This document shows, piece by piece, positions 23,142 through 30,997 of a DNA stretch of 64,000 nt; position 1 is the stretch's first letter, and every line of letters begins with the position of its first letter. The notes below the pieces were generated by a model. It did no database searches. It saw only the letters and a program-made list of their open reading frames with translations, and was not told the DNA's origin. A program made the translations under genes and the position numbers. The stretch lies in contig JAKSIC010000006.1 in assembly GCA_024399015.1 (NCBI GenBank), positions 62,001-126,000 on the forward strand. Direction: 5' to 3'. The stretch comes from Fibrobacter sp. (GTDB taxonomy: Bacteria > Fibrobacterota > Fibrobacteria > Fibrobacterales > Fibrobacteraceae).

Positions 23142-24596
23142 CTAATTTTTAAAATCTTCCTTCTTCATTTCCAGGCGCTCCATGATTTCACGGAGGACCT
23201 TTCTGTCGATACCCAAAATCGTCGCTGCCAAAGTCAAATTGGCATTGCTATCCTTCAGGGCTCGTGCGATAACGTCTCGTTCCACCGCTTCACGGGCTTC
23301 CTTCAGTGTGCGGGGAGATTCCTTGGCCTGGGACTGAACATCACCAAGTCCAAGATCCTCGGGCTGGATCACACCATGGACAGCCATGACCAAAGCCTTC
23401 TGGATTCTGTTTTCCAGTTCACGGACGTTTCCCGGCCAATGATATCCAAGCAAGGCCTTTTCGGTGTTGCGGCTCAAGTGGCACTTGCCACGGCCATATT
23501 CCGCGCCGTATCTCGTGAGAAAATCTTCAGCCAACAACACAACATCCTGGCCACGTTCACGGAGGGGCGGCAACACCATAGGCATCACCTGCAGTCTGAA
23601 ATACAAGTCTTCTCTAAAGCGTTTTTCCCTTACCGCTTCTTCCAAGTCCACATGGGTTGCAGAAATCACACGGACATTCACCGGGATTTCGCGATTGTCG
23701 CCAACGCGGGTAATATGCTTTTCCTGCAACACGCGAAGAAGTTTCACCTGCATGTTCATGGGAAGTTCACCAATTTCATCCAGGAAAATGGTTCCGCCAT
23801 CGGCCTCTTCGAAGAAGCCCTTACGATTGTCAATAGCACCAGTAAAGGAACCCTTGGCATGACCGAACAGCAAAGATTCCATCAAGTTCTCAGGAATGGC
23901 TCCACAGTTCACCGCAATAAACGGTTTGTCGGCGCGGGGGCTATGCCTATGGATGTACTTGGCAAAGACTTCCTTACCTGTACCCGTTTCACCGCGGATA
24001 ATCACAGGCATGGGAAGCGGTGCAAGTTTGTCAGCAAGGCGCACAAGTTCTGCCATCACTGCAGAAGAGTAAACAATGCCGTCCTTACGGACAACGTTTT
24101 TCAAGACATCCAGAGATTCCTTGTCGCGGAGGCGGTCATAGACTGCAAAGGCAAACTTTTCACAGACAGCCACAAAGGAATCGAACAACTTAACATCTTC
24201 GTCAGTAAAGGGTTCTTCGCGAGCGGCGCGCTGCAGGTACAGGTAACCCGCCTCGGAGTCCGGCGTTCTAAAGGGCGACACCATAATGCTTGTCAGCTGG
24301 TTCTGCACAATGGACTTGGACAAGTCCGCAGAATCATCGTCCAGCTGGTTCCAGACCACAGCCTTGTTCTCGGACTTGGCCTGACGCACCGCAGAAATGG
24401 AAATGGAAACTTCTTCAGGGTTGCTGAGGTGCAGAGGTTTCTCGCCGGCAATGTCAAGTACTGCGGCGTCGGCGCGGAGTACGCTTCTGGCCACTTCGAG
24501 AATCTTCGGGAACAAAGTTTCCGGCTGGTCCTCATCCAAAAGTGTCTTTACCACATCCAACATCTTTTCTGTGGCAAGCATTGATTCCGTTTTCAA
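23142..24596 (-). CDS. Sigma-54-dependent transcriptional activator (GAF-AAA+-Fis HTH)
   Basis: A 484-residue enhancer-binding protein. The N-terminal region (about 1-165) looks like a GAF sensor domain. The AAA+ core has Walker A GETGTGKE (about 200-207), a sigma-54 contact loop reading GSFTGA rather than GAFTGA, Walker B TIFLDEIGEL and the arginine-finger region FREDLYFRL. A Fis-type helix-turn-helix (NLTLAATILGIDRKVL) closes the protein. The start is taken as TTG at 24596 with GAGG 5 bases before it; the ATG at 24581 is possible. It is third in an operon after a TPR lipoprotein and a kinase, and sits beside a sigma-54 promoter. Confidence 0.9.
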   Translation of the reverse strand: MKTESMLATEKMLDVVKTLLDEDQPETLFPKILEVARSVLRADAAVLDIAGEKPLHLSNPEEVSISISAVRQAKSENKAVVWNQLDDDSADLSKSIVQNQLTSIMVSPFRTPDSEAGYLYLQRAAREEPFTDEDVKLFDSFVAVCEKFAFAVYDRLRDKESLDVLKNVVRKDGIVYSSAVMAELVRLADKLAPLPMPVIIRGETGTGKEVFAKYIHRHSPRADKPFIAVNCGAIPENLMESLLFGHAKGSFTGAIDNRKGFFEEADGGTIFLDEIGELPMNMQVKLLRVLQEKHITRVGDNREIPVNVRVISATHVDLEEAVREKRFREDLYFRLQVMPMVLPPLRERGQDVVLLAEDFLTRYGAEYGRGKCHLSRNTEKALLGYHWPGNVRELENRIQKALVMAVHGVIQPEDLGLGDVQSQAKESPRTLKEAREAVERDVIARALKDSNANLTLAATILGIDRKVLREIMERLEMKKEDFKN

Positions 24597-24618
24597 GTCA
24601 ACCTCGAATTAAAAATTT

Positions 24619-25800
24619 TTACTCTGAAGCAGGAATGGGCAAGTTCTGTAGCATTTCCTTTATCTGCGCCGAATCCGCTGTTACGGGTTCAGAAACAGAG
24701 TCGGCAGCATCCACATTCAAGCTTCTTGACTGTTTCAACAACATTTCACCTGTGGCATCAATATCCGGCCTTTTTGTACCGAAATAAAGTCCCAAGGCTA
24801 CAAGCAGAAATATAGGAACAAGTATCACAAACAAGATAACCTTGTTCATACGCTTTTTCTGCAAAGCACCACAAACAGCGTACGGCAAATCACACTTTGC
24901 AGCAGATGATACTTTTGTTCCCGTTTTTGGCAAAACTTCCTGCTGCAGGAACTTCTGGATTCCACTCATCAAGGCAATTTCGCCACCAGAAACCTTTCCT
25001 ATGGCGATTTCCAAAAGTTCGTCCAGTTCATCGAAATCTTCCACGCGGTTTTCTGGATCCGTTGCAAGCAAGCCTTGCCACAAAGGTTCCAAGACACTGA
25101 TAAATTCAGGATCCAAATTCAATCCCAAATACAGTTTTTCAGAAATATTGACTTCGCCAACCGCGGTTACCTTAGAGGCAAAATCGTCGTAGCCATTGGC
25201 CTCAATCAAATCCGAACCAGAAATCCAGCGGTAAAGTAGCAAGCCCAGGCTGAACAGGTCGCTTTTCTCGGAAGGCTGTTTCCCCAGAAAACGTTCCGGA
25301 GCGGCATAGGCCAAGGCTCCAGGGCCAACGATACCGAAGTCGATAAGTACCGGGAAAAGTTCACGGGAACCATCTTTTTCTACCACTGTGAAAATTACAT
25401 TGGATGGGTGCAAATCACCATGGGATACATCCAGCTTACTTGTTCTGCCAAGAGCAAAAGCCACGTAGCGCAAAGCTTGCAACGCCACAGGTACCGGCAT
25501 TCGATTCAAGTTATTGGACGGAACACCATCTACAAAATCATAGACCAGGTATGCGGAACCATCACGTTCACCAAATTCCACCACTCTATACAAGTTGGAA
25601 ATTCGGGAGTTTTCCAAAGTTTCCAAGACATCCTTGTCAAAGGAAATTCCTGGTTTGTACCACTTCAGAACACAGTCCCTGCCATCAGCAGAAACCTTGT
25701 AAATACTGGACTCGCCGCCAGAATGCAGCAAGTAGCAGTCCGTCATCGAATCAAGAACAGACGGCTTGCCAGAAGGATTATCCAAAGTACTCAGACTCAT
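24619..25800 (-). CDS. Membrane-anchored Ser/Thr protein kinase (Hanks type)
   Basis: A 393-residue protein with an N-terminal kinase domain: Lys46 (VLKWYK) for ATP, a catalytic loop reading HGDLHPSN (127-134; Arg of HRD is Gly), Asp154 of DFG and AAPER (166-170). A hydrophobic segment at about 318-340 follows, so the kinase is cytoplasmic with a short, roughly 50-residue outer tail and no PASTA domain. Missing Arg in HRD suggests activation without activation-loop phosphorylation. ATGA overlaps the stop of the TPR lipoprotein gene, and the sigma-54 activator starts 22 bp downstream. Confidence 0.88.
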   Translation of the reverse strand: MSLSTLDNPSGKPSVLDSMTDCYLLHSGGESSIYKVSADGRDCVLKWYKPGISFDKDVLETLENSRISNLYRVVEFGERDGSAYLVYDFVDGVPSNNLNRMPVPVALQALRYVAFALGRTSKLDVSHGDLHPSNVIFTVVEKDGSRELFPVLIDFGIVGPGALAYAAPERFLGKQPSEKSDLFSLGLLLYRWISGSDLIEANGYDDFASKVTAVGEVNISEKLYLGLNLDPEFISVLEPLWQGLLATDPENRVEDFDELDELLEIAIGKVSGGEIALMSGIQKFLQQEVLPKTGTKVSSAAKCDLPYAVCGALQKKRMNKVILFVILVPIFLLVALGLYFGTKRPDIDATGEMLLKQSRSLNVDAADSVSEPVTADSAQIKEMLQNLPIPASE

Positions 25801-26522
25801 AATTCTTCCGACAAAATTTTAGCCTTGAGGGAATCCTCCGCCACCTTAGTCCAATGAGCAAGAGCCCTATCCTTGGGCAAAGCTTCATGACCCATGGACC
25901 AGATATCCCAGGCGGATTCAACATCACCTTCTTCCCAATAGATGTTACCCAGGTTCACGTAGGCTGAGGCAAATTTCGGTTCCTTGGTAACCACGTAGAT
26001 AAAAATATTCTTGGCCTCGTCAACTCGGCCCTGCCTTGCCAAAATCAAGGCCTTCAAGTTATAGCTGAAGAAATTCAAGCTATCCAGCTGGATGGACTGG
26101 TCTAGCAAAGGCAACACGTTTGCCTTGCGGTGCTGTTCCATAGTGGCCTTAGCCAAGTAAAACAAGCATGTGGAGTAATTGGCGTCAATCTTTCCGCTGC
26201 TATCCACGCGGGACAAGATTTCAAACTCCTGGGTAGTTCGTTCCCACAGCTTGAATGTGGGACCATTCAGCTTTTCTTCATTTTCGGCAACTGCATAGTA
26301 AGAAAGAGCCAGACCATAACGGGCGTTGCGATGAGCGGGCTGCTGATCCAAAGCCTTGTTGAAATTGGCGATAGCTCGGTCGTAGTCCCCGATTCTCAGG
26401 GCATCGTTTCCACGGGCCACATCCTCATCGACACAAGCACAAAAACAAACCATAGCCGCGGCGGCTACGATTTTCAGCAAAAAATTCCTGATTTTTGGGG
26501 ATTTTCTATCCCAAATGCTCAT
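25797..26522 (-). CDS. TPR-repeat lipoprotein
   Basis: A 241-residue protein. A basic N-terminus and hydrophobic stretch end in the lipobox-like FCAC (Cys about 30). The rest is tetratricopeptide repeats: GNDALRIGDYDRAIANFNKAL, then helical pairs to AYVNLGNIYWEEGDVESAW near residue 210. As the first gene of the kinase/activator operon (4-bp overlap with the kinase gene), it is a plausible envelope sensor or scaffold for the kinase; this is inferred from context only. Confidence 0.75.
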   Translation of the reverse strand: MSIWDRKSPKIRNFLLKIVAAAAMVCFCACVDEDVARGNDALRIGDYDRAIANFNKALDQQPAHRNARYGLALSYYAVAENEEKLNGPTFKLWERTTQEFEILSRVDSSGKIDANYSTCLFYLAKATMEQHRKANVLPLLDQSIQLDSLNFFSYNLKALILARQGRVDEAKNIFIYVVTKEPKFASAYVNLGNIYWEEGDVESAWDIWSMGHEALPKDRALAHWTKVAEDSLKAKILSEEL

Positions 26523-26619: not shown

Positions 26620-27057
26620 TTACTTGTCGAGTTCGCGCTGAGCAACAACGTTGCCATCCACGTCAAGAGCGCGGACAACGTTTTCATCGCGCTGGAGGGT
26701 CAGGTTAGCCTTTTCGCCAGCAGCGGTGGTGATTTCAACGGACATAGAACCGTCGGAGTTCTTGACAGCAGCAATTTCGTTGCCCTGTGCGTCCTTTTCA
26801 TAGTAGGAGTCGCCAGCAGCGAGCGGGTTTGCACCAGTCCAGAATTCAACAGTGTTGAGAACGAGACCATCGATCAGCCACATGCTGACTTCGTAAACCG
26901 GGATAACCCAGAAAGCGAAGTTGATGATGGAGTTCATCCACTTGTTGCCGAAAGAACCAGCAAAATCGTGAGCCTTCTTGAAGCAAGCATTCTTACCATA
27001 GCAACCGGTGAGAACGATCATGCTTGCGCAAGCGAGAGTGATGAGAGCTTTTTTCAT
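26620..27057 (-). CDS. DUF3332-family lipoprotein
   Basis: A 145-residue protein with lipobox LTGC (Cys 19). The region SFGNKWMNSIINFAFWVIPVYEVSMWLIDGLVLNTVEFWTG has the layout of the DUF3332 family: a GNK motif, two hydrophobic helices and an EFWTGxNP motif. The C-terminal part is small beta strands. Family function is unknown. It has AAGGAG before the ATG and its own sigma-70-like promoter and terminator, so it is a well-expressed single gene. Confidence 0.8.
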   Translation of the reverse strand: MKKALITLACASMIVLTGCYGKNACFKKAHDFAGSFGNKWMNSIINFAFWVIPVYEVSMWLIDGLVLNTVEFWTGANPLAAGDSYYEKDAQGNEIAAVKNSDGSMSVEITTAAGEKANLTLQRDENVVRALDVDGNVVAQRELDK

Positions 27058-27633: not shown

Positions 27634-29166
27634 ATGTTGGGTAAATTGAAAGTTTCCATTTTTGCAACAGCATTGGTAGCAACAGCCGCACTGGCCGCAC
27701 CAAAGCCATTGACTGTTTGGATTATGCCCAACGGTGCTTCTCCTCAGGAAAAACTTGAACAGCGTCTTGAGCTCTTCACCAAGAAAACAGGCATCCCGAC
27801 GCAGGTGCAAGTTCTGGACTGGGGTGAAGCCTGGAACCGTATTTCTCTCGCACTTAGTGGTCAGCAGGAAGCACCGGATGTATTGCAGTTAGGTACCACC
27901 TGGATCCCCTATTTCGCATCCCGCAAGGAAATCAAGCCTCTTAACGGATGGCTCAAGGATATCAATCCCAGCAGATACGTTCCTGTCAGCTGGAACACCA
28001 CCCACATGGATGCCGACACCACCATTTATTCAGTGCCTTGGTTCATCGACATTCGTCCGGTTCTCGGCAATAAGAGGATCCTCAAGAAATACGGCATCAC
28101 CAAGGAATCCGTCTCTACCTATAGAGGCTTCGTCGACGCAGTCAAGAAGATTGAACACGCCAATGAAACCCTGGAAGATGGCACCAGAATCCACGGCTAT
28201 GCTTTCCCTGGCAAGAGCGACTGGAACATTCCCCACAACTTTGCACCTTGGGTATGGAGCAACGGTGGTTCTTTCGTCAAGAAGGACGAAGACGGCAAGT
28301 GGCAGGCTAACATTCTTTCTGAAGAAACCCTCCTCGGTATCGCAAGCTACCTCCACTTCGTGATCGACACATTGGTTCAGGCCGAAGTCCTCCAGACCAA
28401 CACCGCACAGGTGGCACAGCAGTTTAATAACGGCGAATTGGCCTTCATCGTCAGCACCACTGAAATCATGATGCAGACCCGTTTCGACGGTTCCATGGGC
28501 GGTCTTTCCAACGCTCGTATCGGTGCCGACAGCGTCATCGCCATTCCGTTCCCCAGCGGAACGGCCGGTAGTTCCAGCTTCATTGGCGGAAGCAACTTGG
28601 CAATCCCCGCAGGCAACAAGCGAGCCGAAGCCAAGGATCTTTTGCTTTTCCTCGTGAACGACGAAAACCAGGATGCCTACACCAAGCAGATTGGCCTCCT
28701 TCCCACCTCTAAGAAAGTGCTTGCCGACTGGGCCAAGGACGAAGACTACGCCGAATTGATCAAGGCTCTGGAAACAGGCAGAACTTACGTTACCATTCCT
28801 GAATGGGGTACCATCGAACAGCAGTTGGTGGCTATGTTCAGTTCCGTCTGGGAAATGATGGAAATTCCCTCCCTGTACTCCGAAGAAAAGCTTTACAGCA
28901 TCTTCAAGCAGTACACCATCGAAATTAACAAGACAGTAAACCATCCCACCGCAAATGTCATGACCGAAGCCGAGTTCAAGGCAATGTGGGAGAACCTGTT
29001 CAATAAGAAGATTCACAACCATGGCGAAAAGCCCAGCAAGGATACAACGTCCAAGGACAACCGCGACGAAATCGTCAACAGCAATTTGTCCAAGGCTCCT
29101 TTCGTATTCATTGCAATGGTTATTCTCGGATTCCTGTTCAACTTCCGCAGGAAGAGAAAGCAATAG
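27634..29166 (+). CDS. Membrane-tethered ABC-type (sugar) solute-binding protein
   Basis: A 510-residue protein: signal peptide (to about 21), then a family-1 type extracellular solute-binding fold (PLTVWIMPNG, APDVLQLGTTW, YSVPWFID, FIGGSNLAIPAGNK). Unlike transport binding proteins it ends with a linker and a C-terminal membrane segment (about 485-503) followed by RRKRK. It is therefore fixed to the inner membrane facing the periplasm. No ABC permease or ATPase gene is near. A GGDEF receptor gene starts 16 bp after its stop, so a sensing role is more likely than transport (inference). AGGAG precedes the ATG. Confidence 0.82.
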   Translation: MLGKLKVSIFATALVATAALAAPKPLTVWIMPNGASPQEKLEQRLELFTKKTGIPTQVQVLDWGEAWNRISLALSGQQEAPDVLQLGTTWIPYFASRKEIKPLNGWLKDINPSRYVPVSWNTTHMDADTTIYSVPWFIDIRPVLGNKRILKKYGITKESVSTYRGFVDAVKKIEHANETLEDGTRIHGYAFPGKSDWNIPHNFAPWVWSNGGSFVKKDEDGKWQANILSEETLLGIASYLHFVIDTLVQAEVLQTNTAQVAQQFNNGELAFIVSTTEIMMQTRFDGSMGGLSNARIGADSVIAIPFPSGTAGSSSFIGGSNLAIPAGNKRAEAKDLLLFLVNDENQDAYTKQIGLLPTSKKVLADWAKDEDYAELIKALETGRTYVTIPEWGTIEQQLVAMFSSVWEMMEIPSLYSEEKLYSIFKQYTIEINKTVNHPTANVMTEAEFKAMWENLFNKKIHNHGEKPSKDTTSKDNRDEIVNSNLSKAPFVFIAMVILGFLFNFRRKRKQ

Positions 29167-29182
29167 TTTCTAACGGTACCTT

Positions 29183-30997
29183 ATGCGAGATTCCGCTATC
29201 CTAAGATTTTCCCGAAGCATCATTTTCAAGTCCATCTTGATTTTGACCGTGGCAATGACCTTGGTGGTCACTGGCGGCATCTGGCTCTATACCCAGAAAC
29301 AATCTGCTCTCATGTTGGAATGGAGTTTCAACAACAACGCTGCTCAGCTGAGTCAGATTGCAGCAACCGCAAGCAACGAAATGAAGCAATTCGGCGACCG
29401 TCTTTCCCTTTTGGCAAAAACCTCTGAAATCCAGGGAATGGACCCGACTGCCGCAGCCAGTTACCTAAAGAGCTACAACATTTCTACTCTGTTTATTTCT
29501 GGCGAAAACATTTCCATTTACGACCGTTCTGAAAAGTTTGTCTGCGACAACTCCATGACCGGAATGCAGACGGGCAGTAAGTATCCCATCGATTTTTCCA
29601 GAATTACCCCCCATCGTCCTTATGTGACTCCTTGGTACAAATCCAGCAAGGAATCTGCACCGGAACGAATTTTCGGAATCAACATTACCAACCGCGCCAC
29701 GGGTGATGGAAGCCTTGTAGCAACCTTCTCCCTCCGCAGACTTTGGAAGAGCTTCGCCGATTACAAGATTGGCAAGAATGGTTTTCTGGTGGCAATCAAT
29801 ACCCAGGGCGAAATTCTTTACCACCCTGACTTAAAGACTTGGTTGACCGACACCCACAAAATTTCTGAACTCGGACTTGCCGATGTGGACCCGAGAAATT
29901 TCAGCGTTCAGAAGCCCACTTTCCAAAAGCTTTCCGATGGCAAATCCTACCTGGTAAACTACGTCTACGACAACAACTACGATTTCGGCATCTTCGCATT
30001 CCAGCCCAAGAGTGAAATTGATGGTCTTGTAGCATCCGTCCGCCAAAGCAGCCTGCTCATCCTTGCTGTAGCAATCATCTTCATCTTTGGCCTCGCCGCC
30101 TGGATGTTCTTTATGCTTGGTCTCCCGCTGAACAAACTGACCAACCACATCCGCAAGATTTCCGATGGAAACATGGATGTTGAACAAATTCACGTTGGCC
30201 ACCGCAAGGATGAAATCGGCACTCTGTCCCAGGCATTCAACCTGATGCACAGCACCATCCTGCGACAGTTGAAAGAACTTGAAGCCCACCGCAACATGTT
30301 GGAACAGGAAGTCCGCGACCGTACCAAGGAATTGGAACTGGCCAACAAGAAGCTGGACTTGATTTCCAGGACCGATGAACTGACAGGCCTGCCCAACCGT
30401 CGCGACATGAACGAAACTATCGCAAACGAAATTGGAAGAAGCCAGCGTACCCACAAGCCGTTCTGCTTCATCTTTATCGATATTGACCACTTTAAGGCCA
30501 TCAACGACACCTACGGCCATGCCTGTGGTGACGTTGTGCTGAAGTCTGTAGCACAAACCGTCCGCGGTCTCCTCCGTAAGTACGACGTGTTCGCTCGTTA
30601 CGGTGGCGAAGAATTCCTGACCCTGCTTCCTGAAACCGACCTGGAAGGCGCAGCAGTGGTTGCAGAACGTTTCCGCAAGAAGATTGAACGTATGACCGTC
30701 CATTACGGTGACTACACCATCAACGTTACGGTAACACTGGGCGTAGCCAAGTTTGACGAACGTCTTGGAGCCGACCGCAGTATCCAGCAGGCAGACAAGG
30801 CTCTGTACCAGGGTAAGGAAGGCGGCCGTAACCAGGTTGTCATCTGGAAGCCGGAATGGACCACAGAAACCGATTACGAAATGGCAGCAATTGAAATGGC
30901 CGAGGCAAAGAAAATGTCCGACACCCAGGCCATGAAAGCCATTGAACAGGCGGAACAGATCATCAACGTCGAATTCAGGGACGAAGAAGATAAGTAA
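29183..30997 (+). CDS. Diguanylate cyclase with periplasmic sensor, HAMP and GGDEF
   Basis: A 604-residue protein: membrane segment (about 15-35), a roughly 250-residue periplasmic domain of dCache type, second membrane segment (about 290-312), HAMP (about 313-365), coiled coil, and GGDEF domain. The active-site motif is GGEEF (474-478) and the product-inhibition I-site RKYD (465-468) is intact, so it should make c-di-GMP and be feedback-inhibited. A short Ala/Glu-rich helix ends the protein. It is co-transcribed with the tethered binding protein, the likely ligand-presenting partner. Confidence 0.9.
   Translation: MRDSAILRFSRSIIFKSILILTVAMTLVVTGGIWLYTQKQSALMLEWSFNNNAAQLSQIAATASNEMKQFGDRLSLLAKTSEIQGMDPTAAASYLKSYNISTLFISGENISIYDRSEKFVCDNSMTGMQTGSKYPIDFSRITPHRPYVTPWYKSSKESAPERIFGINITNRATGDGSLVATFSLRRLWKSFADYKIGKNGFLVAINTQGEILYHPDLKTWLTDTHKISELGLADVDPRNFSVQKPTFQKLSDGKSYLVNYVYDNNYDFGIFAFQPKSEIDGLVASVRQSSLLILAVAIIFIFGLAAWMFFMLGLPLNKLTNHIRKISDGNMDVEQIHVGHRKDEIGTLSQAFNLMHSTILRQLKELEAHRNMLEQEVRDRTKELELANKKLDLISRTDELTGLPNRRDMNETIANEIGRSQRTHKPFCFIFIDIDHFKAINDTYGHACGDVVLKSVAQTVRGLLRKYDVFARYGGEEFLTLLPETDLEGAAVVAERFRKKIERMTVHYGDYTINVTVTLGVAKFDERLGADRSIQQADKALYQGKEGGRNQVVIWKPEWTTETDYEMAAIEMAEAKKMSDTQAMKAIEQAEQIINVEFRDEEDK

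Follow-up and report, generated by a model that had tools for sequence, protein, structure and literature searches.

The two adjacent genes described here probably encode a two-protein sensor, in which a tethered solute-binding protein (SBP) acts as co-receptor for cello-oligosaccharides or other beta-glucans and controls a diguanylate cyclase. They lie in a 64,000-nucleotide stretch (the window) of a Fibrobacter genome that is 99.85% complete; features of the pair are on its plus strand and are given in window positions. Fibrobacter breaks down plant fiber in the gut and is a main degrader of cellulose in the rumen, and the pair offers a concrete candidate link between cellulose and the rise in c-di-GMP reported on this substrate (PMC6851124).

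The gene pair and its conservation

The SBP gene (27634..29166, 510 aa) and the cyclase gene (29183..30997, 604 aa) share a strand and are separated by 16 bp. Both assignments draw on the open reading frame, domain matches and a structural model, and solved relatives place the SBP in the beta-glucan/cellodextrin-binding type. In Pfam, it matches SBP_bac_8 (99.5 bits) and SBP_bac_1 (98.2 bits), both far above the cut-off. The protein starts with a cleavable signal peptide (aa 1-21, 27634..27696; cut between ATAALA and APK) that has no lipobox, and continues into a two-lobed body of some 435 residues (aa 24-460, 27703..29013), recognized from the model and by Foldseek and modeled mostly at a pLDDT above 90. 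Then come a flexible tether (aa 461-486, 29014..29091; pLDDT below 50 at residues 463-485), a C-terminal transmembrane helix (aa 487-504, 29092..29145; residues 488-509 in the model), and the basic tail RRKRKQ (aa 505-510, 29146..29163). This C-terminus reads LSKAPFVFIAMVILGFLF-NFRRKRKQ, with a Kyte-Doolittle value of 2.16 across 18 residues, and the positive-inside rule predicts that the tail is cytoplasmic. We examined more than 50 distinct complete orthologues that are paired with a receptor, and all of them have a helix and a basic tail. A sorting signal of the sortase or exosortase type was also considered for the C-terminus and rejected: the SBP had no match in NCBIfam, and a search across the genome gave no match to an exosortase.

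The cyclase is ordered as TM1, a periplasmic dCache-like domain, TM2, HAMP, a coiled coil, and GGDEF. The HAMP domain (approximately aa 313-360, 30119..30262) scores 41.5 bits and the GGDEF catalytic domain (aa 397-551, 30371..30835) 159.9 bits in Pfam, and a Pfam search of the protein found no EAL domain. In fold comparison the GGDEF domain reaches a Z of ~25 against solved GGDEF domains, and it fills the cyclase match lists, which gave no fold match for the dCache domain. The GGEEF active-site motif (aa 474-478, 30602..30616) is invariant among 31 cyclases, as are the Arg and Asp of the I-site, an RxxD motif reading R465-K-Y-D468 (30575..30586). The sensor between the two TM helices (approximately aa 37-287, 29291..30043) is supported by the model and by a partial dCache_1 match of 26.1 bits against a cut-off of 45. 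Its assignment as dCache, formally below the cut-off, is nevertheless likely, because the homologous receptor of G004 (locus L112), a genome from another family of the phylum, scores 56.5 bits and thus passes. Amino-acid sensing by this domain was also considered: at the position of the Arg of the dCache amino-acid (AA) motif, R126 of PctA (PMC10104139), there is apparently Thr/Ser two residues before W151, as judged by eye. The window genome has 31 GGDEF domain matches versus one PilZ match, and most of its c-di-GMP outputs are unaccounted for.

An earlier note, made from the sequence alone, had described an SBP with a C-terminal membrane segment and basic tail, followed after 16 bp by a dCache-HAMP-GGDEF cyclase with intact GGEEF and I-site. 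The first part is borne out by sequence, hydropathy, model, and orthologues. For the second, the gap, HAMP, GGDEF, and both motifs stand as described, and the dCache domain has a partial match that falls short of the cut-off. The note had also seen no ABC transporter genes nearby; the contig carries no ABC permease, and the BPD_transp_1 matches of the genome are on other contigs.

The two genes are kept together. A scan of bacterial genomes returned 36 loci, all in records named Fibrobacter or Fibrobacteria, and a cyclase homologue directly follows the SBP in 35 of them; the remaining locus ends inside the SBP at a contig end. Among 168 Fibrobacterota genomes, SBP orthologues occur at 85 places in 81 genomes, and at 83 of these places the receptor gene comes next on the same strand; the gap between the matched ends is typically tens of bases. 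One of the remaining two places extends past the end of its contig, and at the other the receptor is a divergent neighbor. Two genomes carry two pairs apiece, and protein identity among paired orthologues falls to 43-44%. Co-occurrence in other genomes, which the earlier note had proposed as a check, was borne out. Given 31 GGDEF matches, chance would provide such a neighbor for roughly 1 in 100 genes, too few to produce the observed pattern. Every other gene family near the pair appears in at most 15 of 23 loci, and since no other neighbor is kept more widely than this, we take the unit to be two genes.

Several observations on the surroundings can be added. Upstream in the window (23142-26522) lies a block encoding a sigma-54 activator, a protein kinase-like protein, and a TPR protein; at 14-15 of 23 loci its kinase and TPR genes are also found close to the pair. 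In G062 (L089:7427-8990), the SBP gene is split across two frames beside an intact cyclase, which is either a real pseudogene or an assembly error. A 1111-aa open frame in G146 was considered as an SBP-cyclase fusion, yet the genes there are separate.

Each partner also has a relative. SBP2, a paralogue ~29-36% identical to the SBP of the pair (SBP1), has a C-terminal helix, mostly a basic tail, and the same pocket tryptophans. In Fibrobacteraceae (L080:4619-9667; L081, L082, L085, L088, and others) it belongs to a tight operon, flanked by aroA (EPSP synthase) and a gene for a fused D-Ala-D-Ala carboxypeptidase S13/amidase. With no receptor in that operon, it was rejected as a second SBP-cyclase pair, and the window genome has no SBP2-type paralogue. 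DGC2, a related cyclase (~51% identical), has no adjacent SBP (L128:6465-8195, L129:6614-8344, L130:6649-8379, L131:5892-7622, and L132:6833-8569); in several genomes it adjoins a DUF3332-like gene, as in the window (26620-27057). Approximately ten Fibrobacter genomes with DGC2 lack the SBP1-cyclase pair and have SBP2 only. Given these SBP-less copies, receptors of this kind may act by themselves or together with an SBP encoded elsewhere.

Ligand type

Among solved structures, the SBP is closest to the beta-glycoside-binding protein beta-GlyBP of Thermus thermophilus (E 6e-63), followed by CbpB of C. thermocellum (E 8e-50). In Foldseek the model superposes on beta-GlyBP entries 7c69/7c68 with a TMt of 0.92 over ~420 columns (rmsd ~2.2 A), and on CbpB with a TMt of 0.89-0.90. 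Reference contacts were taken from the positions at which the solved beta-GlyBP entries carry mutations, namely W41, W67, E117, and W177. By alignment, W63 (27820..27822) is the equivalent of the sugar contact W41, W90 (27901..27903) of W67, and W197 (28222..28224) of W177, and D139 (28048..28050) stands at the place of E117, a change from Glu to Asp. All four are invariant among 30 paired SBPs.

The same four residues are also found in the ABC-type relatives and in SBP2, and because they are common to these groups they predict the binding of beta-gluco-oligosaccharides, not the linkage. Candidate ligands come down to cello-oligosaccharides or other beta-glucans. It is possible, though on balance unlikely, that the pair is a sensor for a beta-glycan other than cellulose fragments (a laminari-, mixed-linkage, or cell-wall-derived oligosaccharide). 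The family-wide contacts do not single out cellodextrins; beta-GlyBP takes several beta-linkages, which counts against fixing the exact ligand; CbpB, with its preference for cellotetraose, also binds laminaribiose (PMC9601137); and SBP2 keeps company with peptidoglycan enzymes. What favors cellulose fragments over these is that Fibrobacter degrades cellulose and that CbpB and beta-GlyBP both bind cellodextrins. In G165 (L122:4219-8279), an ABC-type SBP relative adjoins a gene for a GH94 phosphorylase, an arrangement that fits beta-glucan ligands.

Transport, anchor, and output

If the SBP were still a transport protein, it would deliver cellodextrins to an unlinked permease, for example of the Opp type, and the cyclase would merely be co-transcribed. 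There are reasons to take this seriously: a CbpB-like SBP of F. succinogenes, FSU_1047, has been assigned to import (PMC6851124), and the tethered SBPs of Gram-positives and archaea serve transporters (PMC9602780). The window genome has nine BPD_transp_1 matches (one below the cut-off), on contigs C1, C5, C7, C10, C12, and C18, and the permeases examined are Opp/Dpp-like, polar-amino-acid-like, and PotBC-like, with one on C7 judged OppB-like by eye. The presence of Opp/Dpp permeases leaves room for the transport role; Opp permeases, however, normally pair with family-5 SBPs. Moreover, a permease of the cognate MalF type, searched for with a query taken from beside an ABC-type homologue, gave no match in nine Fibrobacter-genus genomes including that of the window, and the same query matched other genera as a positive control. 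Genera with both systems (G144, G143, and G044) have an ABC operon with its own SBP, apart from the tethered SBP-cyclase pair, and across several genera the tethered SBP is fixed to the receptor and to no transporter. We consider a transport role improbable. The earlier note had named a transporter elsewhere that uses this SBP as grounds against a sensing unit, and no MalFG-type permease was found in the genome. Three smaller observations belong here: the ABC permeases of G146 lie at a contig end, the PotD-like SBP of the window genome is located elsewhere, with PotBC, and near 222755-223315 of its contig C12 (L045:1486-3504) a 672-aa protein has an amino-acid SBP-type domain fused with a polar-amino-acid permease.

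The two kinds of SBP differ in how they are anchored. None of the 10 homologues from ABC operons has the C-terminal helix, and nine carry a lipobox (the start of the tenth is mis-called). Conversely, a lipobox is found in none of the 16 receptor-paired SBPs checked, and every complete one ends in the helix and basic tail. In a tree built without the tail, the ABC-type group, joined by one GH94-adjacent relative, is set apart from all others at 100/100, and full sequences give the same split of the ABC type, likewise at 100/100. Neither the SBP of G165 nor that of G004, which is on a long branch, groups with SBP1 or SBP2 of Fibrobacteraceae. We infer from this tree, which has no outside root, that the anchor changed from lipid to helix.

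The output has been exchanged as well. In G004 an SBP with a C-terminal helix has as its divergent neighbor not a GGDEF protein but a dCache-HAMP-Hpt-HATPase receptor, the sensor of which is homologous to that of the cyclase (24% identity, E 2e-17). In G165 the SBP is found where one contig ends, and another contig starts with a homologous sensor (35%) that carries Hpt-HATPase; adjacency across the contig ends is likely. SBP and sensor thus stay associated as the output changes, as expected of a functional input module.

These associations bear on a further possibility, that the dCache domain binds a small ligand of its own and that the tethered SBP does something else at the membrane, namely periplasmic capture or storage. 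dCache domains usually bind ligands directly, and DGC2 has the same architecture with no SBP at its side. Against this stand the near-universal adjacency and the recurrent association of SBP and sensor with a different output, and we regard separate roles as quite improbable. The suggestion of the earlier note, a solute-sensing unit that sets c-di-GMP, is in our view well supported by the pairing, the failure to find a sugar-type permease in the genome, the separate group in the tree, and the output swap.

Our judgment is evenly balanced on the wider history, in which an SBP lineage akin to those of sugar transport became transporter-free, tethered co-receptors, with a C-terminal helix replacing the N-terminal lipid. 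Their partner would be a single dCache-HAMP sensor that has exchanged its output, with a kinase-type module in some lineages and GGDEF in others, and in Fibrobacter periplasmic cellulose fragments would be a direct input to c-di-GMP. On such a history, the pair would show clearly how a transport-type SBP can come to serve as co-receptor, with a tether role that can be tested.

Proposed mechanism and related systems

For the two-protein sensor, the following sequence of events can be proposed. The SBP would be exported by Sec, lose its signal peptide, and stay anchored to the inner membrane, on its periplasmic side, through its C-terminal helix and a flexible tether of ~26 residues. It would then close on its ligand, a gluco-oligosaccharide with beta-linkages (most likely cellobiose to cellotetraose, or a different beta-glucan fragment in the periplasm), and the liganded form would dock on the dCache domain of the neighboring cyclase. 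A signal passing through TM2, HAMP, and the coiled coil would bring the GGDEF dimer into alignment and increase c-di-GMP, subject to product inhibition at the I-site. The tether would both concentrate the SBP locally around the receptor and withdraw it from transport. It should be kept in mind that we infer the ligand, the contact between SBP and dCache domain, the sign of the response, the role of the tether, and the downstream behavior of the pair, including adhesion.

SBPs that activate receptors, c-di-GMP enzymes among them, are already known (PMC9602780, PMC8846402), and the closest working analogues of the docking step would be CuaD-CuaS and NspS-MbaA. CuaD of Ruminiclostridium cellulolyticum senses cellobiose and binds the extracytoplasmic domain of CuaS (PMC10384115). 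As in the CuaD-CuaS-CuaR system, a family-1 SBP is encoded beside a membrane receptor; CuaD, however, is an N-terminal lipoprotein working through a histidine kinase receptor and an AraC-type regulator, whereas the SBP described here has a C-terminal helix and no lipobox, and its receptor has a GGDEF output to c-di-GMP. This sets the pair outside the CuaDSR three-component type. NspS-MbaA of Vibrio cholerae and Sinorhizobium (PMC8967002, PMC9993111) shares with it a periplasmic SBP encoded with the membrane c-di-GMP enzyme that it tunes. The differences are that NspS binds polyamines and its enzyme is bifunctional, whereas our SBP gene, also beside a c-di-GMP enzyme, encodes a tethered protein of beta-glucan type, not PotD-like, next to GGDEF without EAL. 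STM1987 of Salmonella, a dCache_1 protein, offers a parallel in that its output is c-di-GMP and that it requires a periplasmic binding protein, ArtI, to respond to a nutrient (PMC8846402), but ArtI binds arginine, and the SBP here is a tethered one of sugar type encoded next to its cyclase. With beta-GlyBP (7c63-7c71) and CbpB (7x0i-7x0n) the likeness is one of fold and, for beta-GlyBP, also of the mutated sugar-contact positions; both belong to ABC transporters, unlike an SBP with a C-terminal helix and a receptor partner. In our search of the open-access literature we came across neither a beta-glucan SBP that is tethered at its C-terminus and pairs with a diguanylate cyclase nor a description of the swaps in SBP anchor and sensor output.

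Adhesion to plant fiber, which the earlier note had put forward, is a plausible outcome, and the argument for it comes solely from published changes in c-di-GMP and proteome of F. succinogenes on cellulose. In strain S85, c-di-GMP is ~2.5-fold higher on cellulose than on glucose, and FSU_1047 is raised on cellulose (PMC6851124). Two cyclases also reported as raised, FSU_0222 and FSU_0748, have locus tags that are not next to FSU_1047, which counts against the sensor reading. In an earlier study FSU_1047 (57.6 kDa) was found solely on microcrystalline cellulose (PMC4619616). Its size and pI fit SBP1 or SBP2 alike, and it is context and no proof for SBP1; a CbpB-like SBP that has been assigned to import may be a sensor instead.
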